Assembly (NCBI RefSeq): GCF_005049285.1
Contig: NZ_SOSC01000009.1
Coordinates: 1 to 64,000, forward strand
Origin: Halorientalis salina
Lineage (GTDB): Archaea; Halobacteriota; Halobacteria; Halobacteriales; Haloarculaceae
Direction of reading: 5' to 3'
Length of the DNA stretch: 64,000 nucleotides
Within the stretch, counting starts at the first letter, position 1; every line of letters begins with the position of its first letter. The notes under the pieces are model-generated. The model saw nothing but the letters and a program-made list of their open reading frames with translations. It was not told the DNA's origin and did no database searches. The position numbers were made by a program, and so were the translations under genes. This document shows positions 1,174-16,342 of this stretch, piece by piece.

Positions 1174-2385
1174 ATGAGTACGCAGGTACACGCAAACCTC
1201 ACGGAGGAGCAGGTAACGACGATCAGCGAGGACCTCGGCGAGCCCGAGTGGCTTCTGGAGACGCGTCTGGAAGCGCTCGACGCGCTCGACGACCTCGACA
1301 TGCCCGACGTCATTCGCACGCCGGGTCGTGACTGGACCAACCTCGACGCGCTCGAATACGAGAGCTTCGTCGACCCGCTGGACCGGGCCCAGGAGAAAGA
1401 CCGCGTCGAGGCCGAGGGCGTCGAACTGCTCTCGTGGGACGAGGCACTCGACGAACACGGCGACGTCATCGAAGAGCACTTCGGGAGTGTCGTCGACCCG
1501 CAGCGCGATTACCTCACTGCGCTATCGACGGCGCTGTTCTCGGCCGGGACCCTCGTGTACGTTCCCGAGGGCGTCGACGCCGAGGACGTGAAGATTCGGA
1601 CCCGGATGAACAGCCAGTCGCTGTTCAATTACACGCTCGTCATCGCCGAGGAGTCCTCGTCGGTGACGATCCTCGAACGACAGGAGAACGGCGACGACGT
1701 CGAGGGGAACCAGTACTACAGCGGCGTCGTCGAGGCCGTCGTCGGTGAGAACGCGCACGTCCAGTACGGCGCACTCCAGAACCTGGACGAGGACACCTAC
1801 AACTTCCAGGTCAAGCGCGGCCACGCCCACACCTACGGCGTCCTCAACTGGATCGACGGCAACATCGGCTCACGGCTCACGAAGACCAACGTCGAGACGC
1901 GACTGCTCGGCGACTCCTCGGAGTCCAAGATCGTCGGTGCCTTCTTCGGCCACGGGGACCAGCACTTCGACCTCGCCTCGCGCGTCTGGCACGAGGCCGA
2001 ACACACGGTCGCGGACCTCGTGACCCGCGGCGTCCTCGACGACACGGCGCGATCGGTGTACGAGGGCGTCCAGGACGTGGGCCGCGAGGCCTGGGACACC
2101 AGCTCCTACCAGCGTGAGAACACGCTGATGCTCTCCGACGAGAGCGAGGCCGACGCGTCGCCGAAGCTCATCATCAACAACCACGACACCGAAGCGAGCC
2201 ACTCCGCGACGGTCGGGCAGGTCGACGAGCAGGACATGTTCTACATGACCTCCCGGTCGATCCCGCCGGAAGTCGCGCGGAACATGCTCGTCGAAGGGTT
2301 CTTCGTGCCCGTCCTGGACGAAGTTGCGGTCGACGAACTCAGCGACGATCTCGAAGAGCTCATCGCGAAGCGTCTTCGTGAGTAG
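1174..2385 (+). CDS. sufD: Fe-S cluster assembly protein SufD
   Basis: Partner of SufB in the SufBC2D complex that builds and transfers Fe-S clusters. The 403-residue protein has the same beta-helix core as SufB (GENAHVQYGALQNLDEDTYN parallels the SufB segment) but a divergent helical N-terminus, as expected for SufD. ATG 1174 follows the sufB stop by 15 nt. The C-terminus ends KRLRE, and the DNA coding for it is copied about 172 bp downstream in the repeat block that follows. A second SufB-like paralogue is the only real alternative name. Confidence 0.93.
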   Translation: MSTQVHANLTEEQVTTISEDLGEPEWLLETRLEALDALDDLDMPDVIRTPGRDWTNLDALEYESFVDPLDRAQEKDRVEAEGVELLSWDEALDEHGDVIEEHFGSVVDPQRDYLTALSTALFSAGTLVYVPEGVDAEDVKIRTRMNSQSLFNYTLVIAEESSSVTILERQENGDDVEGNQYYSGVVEAVVGENAHVQYGALQNLDEDTYNFQVKRGHAHTYGVLNWIDGNIGSRLTKTNVETRLLGDSSESKIVGAFFGHGDQHFDLASRVWHEAEHTVADLVTRGVLDDTARSVYEGVQDVGREAWDTSSYQRENTLMLSDESEADASPKLIINNHDTEASHSATVGQVDEQDMFYMTSRSIPPEVARNMLVEGFFVPVLDEVAVDELSDDLEELIAKRLRE

Positions 2386-2586
2386 CGTGGCATCGGAGAC
2401 GCCACGAACGAACGGGCCGGAGGCCCGTGAGTAGTGCGGAGCACTACTCACGAACGGCTCGGGAGAGCGTTGCTCTCCCGGCGTCTCCGCGAGTAACGCC
2501 TTGGCGTTACGAGGGGGGGCTCGTCAGGCGTCAGCCTGACGGCGTCTTCGCGAGTAGCGTGGTGACGAAGTCGCCACGAACGAACG
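2370..2586. repeat. Hairpin/repeat block between sufD and the ferritin-like gene
   Basis: Seven short inverted repeats follow one another: 2386-2406 (loop 9), 2412-2428 (7 bp, loop gga), 2427-2451 (11 bp perfect, loop gga), 2460-2480 (9 bp, loop gtt), 2493-2510 (8 bp, loop tt), 2522-2541 (8 bp, loop gtca) and 2558-2578 (9 bp with one wobble, loop gaa). The motif gcgtctYcgYgagtaRcg occurs three times (2370, 2481, 2542), each time leading into a hairpin. Bases 2370-2414 and 2542-2586 match at 39 of 45 positions, so the end of sufD itself is part of the repeat. The block could terminate the suf transcript. No protein is supported here. Confidence 0.8.
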
Positions 2587-3210: not shown

Positions 3211-3638
3211 ACACGGCAGACCAGTATCTGAAGGCGATCTATCTCGTTCAGGAACAGGAGGACGGCCCGGCGTCGACCGGTCGCGTTGCCGAGACGCTCG
3301 ATGTCAGCCCGGCGAGCGCAAACGAGATGATCGGCAAGCTAGAGGAGCGTGACCTGCTCGACCACGAGAAGTACAAGGGCGTCACGCTCACCGACGAGGG
3401 CATCCGGAAGGCCAGCGACGCCCTCCAGACGTACTGCATCATCGAGCGGTTCCTCCACGAAGTCCTCGACGTCGAGGAGTTCCGCCACGAGGCCAAACAG
3501 CTCGAACCAGTCATCGACGAGACGGTCGCCGAGCGCCTCGACACCATCATCGACCGCGAACCGCAGTGCCCCGACTGCTTCTCCGCCGAAGACGACGCCT
3601 GTGCCCTGCTGGAACTCGAAGTCGACGCGGCGGACTGA
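3207..3638 (+). CDS. sirR: DtxR/SirR-type metal-dependent transcriptional regulator
   Basis: A 143-residue protein. The N-terminal winged helix (about 1-65: YLKAIYLVQEQEDGPASTGR, then VSPASANEMIGKLEERDLL) is followed by a dimerisation/metal-binding helical domain with HEVLDVEEF and a distinctive C-terminal PQCPDCFSAEDDAC segment. DtxR/MntR relatives repress transcription when Fe(II) or Mn(II) is bound. ATG 3207 is preferred over GTG 3198 because of the ggggtgg ribosome binding site and the conserved MNTADQYLKAIY start. The location next to suf and a ferritin-like gene suggests control of iron or manganese homeostasis. Confidence 0.88.
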   Translation: MNTADQYLKAIYLVQEQEDGPASTGRVAETLDVSPASANEMIGKLEERDLLDHEKYKGVTLTDEGIRKASDALQTYCIIERFLHEVLDVEEFRHEAKQLEPVIDETVAERLDTIIDREPQCPDCFSAEDDACALLELEVDAAD

Positions 3639-3710: not shown

Positions 3711-3834
3711 AGTCTCGTGGTGTAGTGGCCAATCATAGGGGCCTTTGGAAGAACATACCCCAGAGTCGATTCGTATTCATTGGGGTGTGTTCTGAAGTTA
3801 GCCCCTGACGGCGGTTCGAATCCGCCCGAGACTA
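3711..3834 (+). tRNA. tRNA-Gln(TTG) with intron
   Basis: Acceptor arms agtctcg (3711-3717) and cgagact (3827-3833) pair fully, with discriminator A at 3834. The T arm contains ggttcgaatcc. The anticodon stem ggggc/gcccc (3738-3742, 3801-3805) frames the loop c-t-TTG-g-a with an intron of about 51 nt (3749-3799) after position 37. The intron ends gaac...gttc pair, giving a bulge-helix-bulge-like structure. Exons total 73 nt with no encoded CCA. An intron in tRNA-Gln(UUG) is known from Haloferax. A TATA-like cttactt lies about 25-30 nt upstream. Exact splice sites may be off by a base or two. Confidence 0.93.
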
Positions 3835-15802: not shown

Positions 15803-16081
15803 TTACTCCTGGAACTCCAGTCGGCCGGCGCGCCATCCTTCGCGGAGGTGAGCCTTCCCGCATTCCGAGCAGCGGTACTTCAGGTCGGTCTTCTTCGTGG
15901 GCTTGTCTCCACCAGGGACCTTCGAGAACTTCCCGTCGTTCCCGATACCGGAGTTGCGCTCGCGCTGTCGATCGATCCACTTCATCCCGGTCTGGCGACC
16001 GGTTCGGACCTTCTCGACCTCGATTTCCTGGTGCTCGTTGCAGTGCGGACAGTACGTGTTAAATCGGCGTGGCATCTGCAT
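15803..16081 (-). CDS. rpl44e: 50S ribosomal protein L44e (eL42 family)
   Basis: A 92-residue protein with two zinc-binding pairs (YCPHC near 10-14 and RCSEC near 71-75) and a basic centre ([20 protein letters not shown]). It binds near the ribosomal E site. From memory it is almost identical to the Haloarcula marismortui protein, which supports a Haloarculaceae host. The start MQMPRR is kept as in Haloarcula. It is the first gene of the translation operon. Confidence 0.97.
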
Positions 16082-16172
16082 AGATATCTACCTTAGTTCC
16101 TCGTATGAGAGTCCCCACTAAAACCCGTTTGGTTTTACGACCATCTTTTTGCTCCCATCTTTTTCCTCGTCG

Positions 16173-16274
16173 GGTTCGCGCGGAGCGCGAACCGCTCCTC
16201 GCAAAAACATGGGTGAAAAAGGCTGAACGCTCGCTCCGCTCGCGTTCAGTGAACCGCGCGCCGTAGGCGCGCGG
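16173..16274. repeat. Hairpin cluster upstream of the L44e operon
   Basis: Three strong inverted repeats occur in about 100 bp: 16173-16193 (ggttcgcgc, loop gga, 9 bp perfect), 16223-16249 (ctgaacgc/gcgttcag, loop 11) and 16254-16274 (ccgcgcgcc, loop gta, 9 bp perfect). It resembles the block after sufD and the one at 16730-16867. T-runs for minus-strand transcripts lie between them (aaaaa at 16203 and 16216). The flanking bases 16082-16172 and 16275-16342 show no gene. Confidence 0.75.
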
Positions 16275-16342
16275 ATGCTGGTAGTCAGTACAGGCCATTC
16301 ATCCAGCAGACAGGTGAGCCAGTAGATGAGGTTGATTTATGC

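Follow-up and report, generated by a model that had tools for sequence, protein, structure and literature searches.

Probable REP/RPE-like palindromic elements at the 3′ end of sufD and elsewhere in haloarchaea

The sufD gene and its hairpin array

The window, by which we mean the whole stretch of 64,000 nucleotides analysed here (Halorientalis salina, contig NZ_SOSC01000009.1, forward strand), is part of a 3.66-Mb haloarchaeal assembly in 23 contigs. It includes sufD, whose product is 86% identical to SufD of Haloarcula amylovorans and whose end runs into an array of hairpins. Other features near the suf genes are an iron-dependent repressor gene downstream of them (Fe_dep_repress, 3225–3638) and a tRNA gene with an apparent intron (3711–3834; Rfam tRNA, 46.5 bits over 124 bases). 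In the following list, A and B are the two module types of the array, bit scores are those of R1, a covariance model of module A, and the tail copies are two versions of the sufD end.

1174–2385, + strand: sufD coding sequence, 403 aa (Pfam SUFBD_core, E 7.5e-71)
2370–2418, + strand: A module 1 and tail copy 1 (R1 match 2369–2418, 39.3 bits, in the model's own alignment; direct repeat D1)
2412–2428, + strand: hairpin ACGGGCC-GGA-GGCCCGT, within 26 bases that match the flank of L107, an array-free relative, at 96% identity
2419–2461, + strand: weak A-like module with a 12-bp hairpin at 2426–2452 (18.2 bits)
2459–2481, + strand: B module hairpin, CGGGAGAGC-GTT-GCTCTCCCG, with one extra G-T pair and the linkers GGCTC and GGCGTC (hairpin and fold)
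2480–2523, + strand: A module 2, hairpin at 2493–2510 (46.7 bits, in the model's own alignment)
2521–2542, + strand: B module hairpin, CGTCAGGC-GTCA-GCCTGACG, with one extra G-T pair
2541–2590, + strand: A module 3 and tail copy 2, hairpin at 2558–2578 (34.8 bits, outside the model's alignment)
2602–2606, + strand: TTTTC tract 3′ of the array, candidate terminator of the sufD transcript by analogy with the T-stretch motif described for Haloferax (PMC7237163)

Seven hairpins can be drawn when G-T pairs are allowed (2386–2406, 2412–2428, 2426–2452, 2459–2481, 2493–2510, 2521–2542 and 2558–2578). The original prediction had given this number and loops mostly of 2–4 nucleotides, both of which stand (the first hairpin, with a loop of 9, is the exception), but the stems comprise 6–12 pairs and thus exceed the maximum of 11 bp proposed there. 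An 18-mer motif said to occur three times is present in exact copies at 2370, 2481 and 2542, and the reported repetition of the sufD end was recovered, 2370–2414 and 2542–2586 being identical at 39 of 45 bases (42 of 49 as direct repeat D1). The final 16 bases of sufD (2370–2385) lie inside the first A module, whose codons from 2371 read CGT CTT CGT GAG TAG and whose hairpin (2386–2406) is associated with a 5′ GA at 2380–2381 and a 3′ GA at 2406–2407.

Strict hairpins are concentrated here: the tile 2388–2604 contains five, compared with three in the runner-up (16059–16275) and a mean of 0.18 over 294 window tiles of 217 bases. The RNA fold of the array has a z score of -6.7 and none of 200 shuffles was equally good. 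A 16-mer core searched with up to two mismatches matched the window three times, always in the array, where 0.66 matches were expected and 5 of 100 shuffles reached three. Genome-wide, such matches mean little, since the same search of the own genome returned 30 matches and its reversed pattern 24; exact matches number four, three in the array and one on contig C20. R1 scored 46.7, 39.3, 34.8 and 18.2 bits in the array, the first two for modules included in its alignment, and 16.0 bits for the next match in the window. A scan of 2300–2720 for bacterial-type terminators, one of three roles proposed for the block together with mRNA stabiliser and small mobile repeat, found none, although the TTTTC tract does follow the array.

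Modular structure and dispersal

Arrays of relatives resolve into two alternating hairpin modules, A and B, forming a unit of about 60 bases. Module A mostly follows GCGTC or GGTGTC and comprises an outer stem TNCGN/NCGNA, then GA opposite GA and an inner stem which starts mostly with G-C and U-A. Its arms (5′ (G)GCGTC-TNCGN-GA-GT..., 3′ ...AC-GA-NCGNA-GGCTCG) thus form a stem with a tandem G.A step. Module B is a sequence-variable hairpin between GGCTC and GGYGTC.

In an alignment of 19 A modules, 91.5% of cells are paired (74.8% when shuffled) and 43 are double-changed (12.5 when shuffled), counts which are not to be read as probabilities since the structure was drawn from the same 19 sequences, many of them related. 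When partners are slid as a control, pairing falls to 33–45%. Further pair types show no excess over shuffles in these modules, 484 of 500 being as high. An arm-covariation shuffle on the first sufD modules was set aside because the 3′ arm had been chosen by pairing, which biases its p value. Most of the 19 modules were picked by a script demanding GA on both sides, so that their GA content proves nothing; the step was therefore recounted with no letters required and is GA/GA in 52 of 67 distinct modules, a paired GA/TC in 3 and something else in 12. A strict search for the G.A hairpin gave 28 matches, four of them in sufD arrays, and the pattern of a B module followed by the next A occurs at six places in the own genome, two of which are arrays, compared with one for the control.

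The modules are dispersed among haloarchaea. R1 detects A in 69 of 146 genomes of the family, representing 16 of 22 genera (E 0.001 or better), and in 98 of 293 genomes sampled from the order (38 of 87 genera; E 0.0001), 72 of the 98 lying outside the family; these E-values are rough and, together with the window, are the sole guide to the false rate. The own genome has nine matches. Of the eight listed, three lie at sufD, C20 and C18 have two each and C1 has one; one C20 and one C18 match had belonged to the R1 alignment. The neighbours of the matches on C20 and C18 are, judging from their translations, presumably radA and hisG. Of six loci outside the family, four have a B-like hairpin after A and two failed the display filter. 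Related genomes do not show the block as a conserved region present once and lacking motif copies at other places, the pattern which the original prediction had regarded as incompatible with it. A feature restricted to sufD had been considered, as an exact A pattern ending in ACGAACGAAGGC hit 4 of 146 genomes, all at sufD, and was dropped once R1 showed dispersal.

We sorted 71 distinct places other than sufD, taken from ranked lists and not at random, with regular expressions written after reading them: 26 are in a longer chain, 12 are of a second kind, 11 are in coding sequences and 22 are other. The chain consists of an upstream T-tract (loosely defined), an A-rich linker, a hairpin, A, B and a terminal hairpin ending in GGATGC or similar. 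For 17 of the 26 chains, a sense frame 100 or more codons long stops within the 30 bases that precede the T-tract; random positions drawn from these loci gave 96 of 1040. The second kind has A, B and then GGACTGAAAGGG or similar.

Several observations were made alongside this classification. The second-kind repeat is found at L160, L162, L178, L181, L182, L189, L205, L206, L240, L241, L242 and L244, with CCCTTTCAGTCC upstream in L160 and L182, and it has several copies in genome G094. An identical linker, TCTACGCTAAAAAAG, occurs in five chains of genome G000 with mostly different stems (C20:70324, L085; C18:241422, L084; C21:79422, L086; C11:354921, L087; C19:140442, L088), those on C11 and C19 being without A-B modules; the exact linker is present in 4 of 146 family genomes and other lineages have other linkers in the same place. 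The A-B units of L190 and that of L169 adjoin what we take, by eye, to be tRNA-like 3′ ends; ARAGORN reported no tRNA at the L169 unit.

Most A copies differ in their stems. Genome G088 has three identical A modules, which are found in exactly this form in other genomes too (L157, L158, L171), so that identity need not mean recent copying. Rfam searches found no family other than tRNA in the window between 2200 and 4000 (E up to 1) and none above the gathering threshold at seven loci. A known RNA family was rejected; L154 did match a viral RNA element, but its 22 bits are far below the gathering score of 104 and were taken as chance.

Units in coding sequences and at the end of sufD

Eleven places have units in coding sequences, seven in sense and four in antisense. 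The sense units are in frame in tsaD (two genomes), mutS, a nitrite/sulfite reductase gene (NIR_SIR, twice, at different sites), a helicase gene and an HMG-CoA reductase gene, and encode a peptide close to GVSAS-X-ASGGS. Six of these host genes, all except the second tsaD (L193), were scanned with Pfam and confirmed. Aligned with solved MutS and Kae1, the unit peptide is an insertion, and within genes such units would add a small Gly-Ser-rich loop. The antisense units lie in histidine-kinase-like genes, both of the two scanned being confirmed by Pfam. An acidity-based ORF caller missed genes (tsaD in L186 and L193) and was kept solely for the orientation of the histidine kinases. The histidine-kinase-like genes of L168, L183, L249 and L250 have extra peptides around NAVEHG, for example GSTSPRSSTREDAVEHG, where the antisense units sit; in L250 these are in tandem.

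At the tsaD site, 30 loci of one genus comprise 7 filled sites, one of them shortened (G029), and 23 empty ones. Most filled sites have GACGG(C/T)G or a near form of it on both sides. Of the 23 empty sites, only 7 contain GGCGTC, which is consequently a possible target, not a proven requirement.

The end of sufD is labile. A locus was counted as having an array when it contained one or more sense A matches scoring 20 bits or higher; by this measure, 38 sufD loci from the genus of the window and a Haloarcula-like genus divide into 19 with an array and 19 without. On a quick tree, array presence takes at least 10 changes, 8 of them forced by starred branches (12.9 with shuffled labels), and gains are indistinguishable from losses. 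With one exception (L111, Leu-Arg-Asn-stop), sufD of the array loci ends in Leu-Arg-Glu-stop (18 of 19). As the same ending is found in 11 of the 19 array-free loci, the remaining 8 having another, it is older than the arrays or at least independent of them.

In 8 of the 19 array loci, the start of an empty tail can be aligned with a later copy of the sufD tail, with shifts of 59, 60, 61, 101, 118, 168, 182 and 182 bases and identities of 73–87% over 49–163 bases; the first 16 or so bases are common to A modules, so the remainder and the hairpin which follows are the evidence. The clearest pair is G026, which is empty, and G038, which has one unit (134 nt at 82%), the displaced stop in G038 reading TGG. 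From these alignments, the old sufD tail seems to have been displaced in the eight genomes. Alignment anchored at the start of the tail gave no match in the other 11 array genomes, the window included, and L117, counted as an array locus, matches the empty tail of L110 with zero shift. The idea that the repeat began inside the coding sequence or had copied it was right in substance: the A modules of relatives start in the last codons of sufD, and the eight tails found further downstream agree with copying.

A distance of 172 bases, near three units, separates the two tail copies of the window, and A module 3 with tail copy 2 resembles the displaced tails of relatives when the tails are set side by side. 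The 26 bases which follow tail copy 1, and not those after copy 2, match the empty-site flank of L107; copy 2 may thus have arrived later than an original copy 1, or the two may have been mixed by conversion.

Origin of the array and comparison with known systems

The block is probably an array of a REP/RPE-like short palindromic insertion element of haloarchaea, which occupies the last codons of sufD and appears to supply the ending of the gene while leaving the protein intact. Of the three roles first proposed, the small mobile repeat is the best supported, on comparative evidence from the dispersed copies, the filled and empty tsaD sites and the labile presence at sufD; as a whole, the earlier interpretation is partly supported. 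A unit would enter sufD by insertion beside a GGCGTC-like site, which in this gene is GAGCGTC or some variant and lies in the codons preceding the final Leu-Arg-Glu (AAGCGTC, Lys-Arg-Leu, in the window). The element arm usually reads CTN CGN GAG stop in the sufD frame, so that insertion would restore Leu-Arg-Glu-stop and be harmless, which could explain why the sufD end changes so often. The former ending would become an untranslated spacer, the array would presumably be transcribed and might influence sufD expression, and units could then multiply or vanish by recombination between the common GGCGTC sequences.

It is possible, though rather unlikely, that the array is instead a functional 3′ UTR RNA, whose hairpins protect the end of the suf mRNA or aid termination, the G.A hairpin binding a protein and copies elsewhere acting alike. 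The covariation of A with its retained G.A step would fit such a role, as would the stability of the sense fold (-133.2 kcal/mol, compared with -125.2 for the antisense, though the antisense z of -6.2 also stands out) and the frames ending just before the T-tracts of the chains. In Haloferax, terminators are described as T-stretches, and hairpins are reported upstream of 503 termination sites (PMC7237163). Several features argue against an RNA role: the array is missing in half of the 38 sufD genomes, with at least 8–10 changes; units lie within coding sequences in both orientations; and the DNA folds of both strands stand out as well (z -5.7 and -5.5). The loops are mostly triloops (106 of 204 counted), and the 45 tetraloops include one GNRA and no UUCG, a composition unlike that of typical selected RNA hairpins. 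The occurrence of C-GNA-G in 18 of the 106 triloops, and of the complementary TNC form in at least 31, is at most suggestive of DNA-specific hairpins.

A relic of IS605-type transposons comparable to the PATEs, in which A and B would be end palindromes moved in trans by a Y1 (TnpA) or TnpB-type element, seems unlikely. Its appeal lies in the PATEs of Haloquadratum, which are described as having near-terminal palindromes, as being as short as 52 bp and as mobile elements (PMC3119063), and in the Y1_Tnp match of 95 of 146 family genomes. Across the 146 genomes, however, Y1 transposases and A modules show no association (46/23/49/28 genomes, p = 0.73); 8 of the 19 genomes with a sufD array have no Y1_Tnp match; and near eight Y1 genes no convincing A module was found, the best match being 8.8 bits, in a comparison confined to Y1 loci. 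The GACGG(C/T)G-like repeat flanking most filled tsaD sites also fits poorly with PATEs, which are said to lack target duplication (PMC3119063). Mobilisation by a Y1 or RAYT enzyme found no support on the same grounds.

Template switching can produce compensatory changes, and arrays are tandem with common GGCGTC junctions and several tail shifts near multiples of 60, but local tandem duplication with quasipalindrome repair at the sufD end, with independent look-alikes elsewhere in GC-rich genomes, is very improbable, since repair should erase the G.A mismatch retained in most distinct modules, the A-B unit is also in tsaD, mutS and other genes, and A matches extend to 38 of 87 genera.

We return to the insertion element, for which a wider reading can be offered tentatively and with some doubt: a haloarchaeal superfamily of self-sealing two-hairpin elements with a tandem G.A signature might be spread by a non-Y1 factor, its arms reading either a Gly-Ser loop (close to GVSAS.ASGGS) or Leu-Arg-Glu-stop, so that insertion leaves proteins working. 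The element may explain extra peptides in haloarchaeal MutS, HMG-CoA reductase, nitrite/sulfite reductase and histidine kinases.

In mitochondrial DNA, double-hairpin elements also consist of two adjacent hairpins, are mobile and have variable stems; they are likened here by description and, unlike the haloarchaeal element, are mitochondrial. Bacterial REPs are divided into GTAG- and CGTC-tagged superfamilies, the latter including RPE-4 and RPE-6 of Rickettsia, and lie mostly 3′ of genes and sometimes inside them (PMC3733652). The haloarchaeal element resembles the CGTC-tagged REPs, as described there, in its CGTC/TGTC tag at one palindrome end, its position mostly 3′ of genes and sometimes in frame, and the lack of a known dedicated transposase. 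The tag is GCGTC at 2370, 2481 and 2542 in the window; among the 19 aligned modules, 15 have CGTC or TGTC and four have CGGT, CGGC or TGCC. CGTC-tagged REPs, as that account has them, possess stems of 8–9 bp with A-T first pairs, loops of 4–5, a CCA-like tail and mostly a head-to-head dimeric arrangement, and no archaeal member is named in its treatment (PMC3733652). In contrast, module A of the haloarchaeal element has its stem divided by the G.A step into an outer and an inner part, stem sequences are variable, the tail is mostly GGCTCG, and the two-hairpin unit is repeated head to tail at sufD and L192. Since stem form and dimer orientation differ, we do not file it among the CGTC REPs. GTAG-tagged REPs, which have RAYT transposases, are likewise palindromes at gene 3′ ends and often supply a TAG stop codon (PMC3733652); the haloarchaeal element differs from them in its tag and in its missing link to Y1 genes. 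As in RPEs, units are inserted in frame in unrelated genes and have empty sites in relatives, the latter compared at tsaD only.

The nearest archaeal elements, in the description of PMC3119063, are the PATEs and SMRs of Haloquadratum, which are also small, mobile and transposase-free, the PATEs having palindromes near their ends. By that description PATEs relate to IS605 ends and are not presented as in-frame coding inserts. The archaeal MITEs named in PMC10969869 include none of this kind, and no description of such haloarchaeal elements was found among the papers listed in searches of the open-licence PMC literature. Palindromic repeats which invade proteins are known chiefly from Rickettsia and certain other bacteria, as far as PMC3733652 and PMC10969869 describe them; a haloarchaeal counterpart with filled and empty tsaD sites, testable in culturable Haloarcula strains, would be a tractable system for studying how transposase-free repeats spread, why they are located at the ends of genes and how proteins acquire loops from them.
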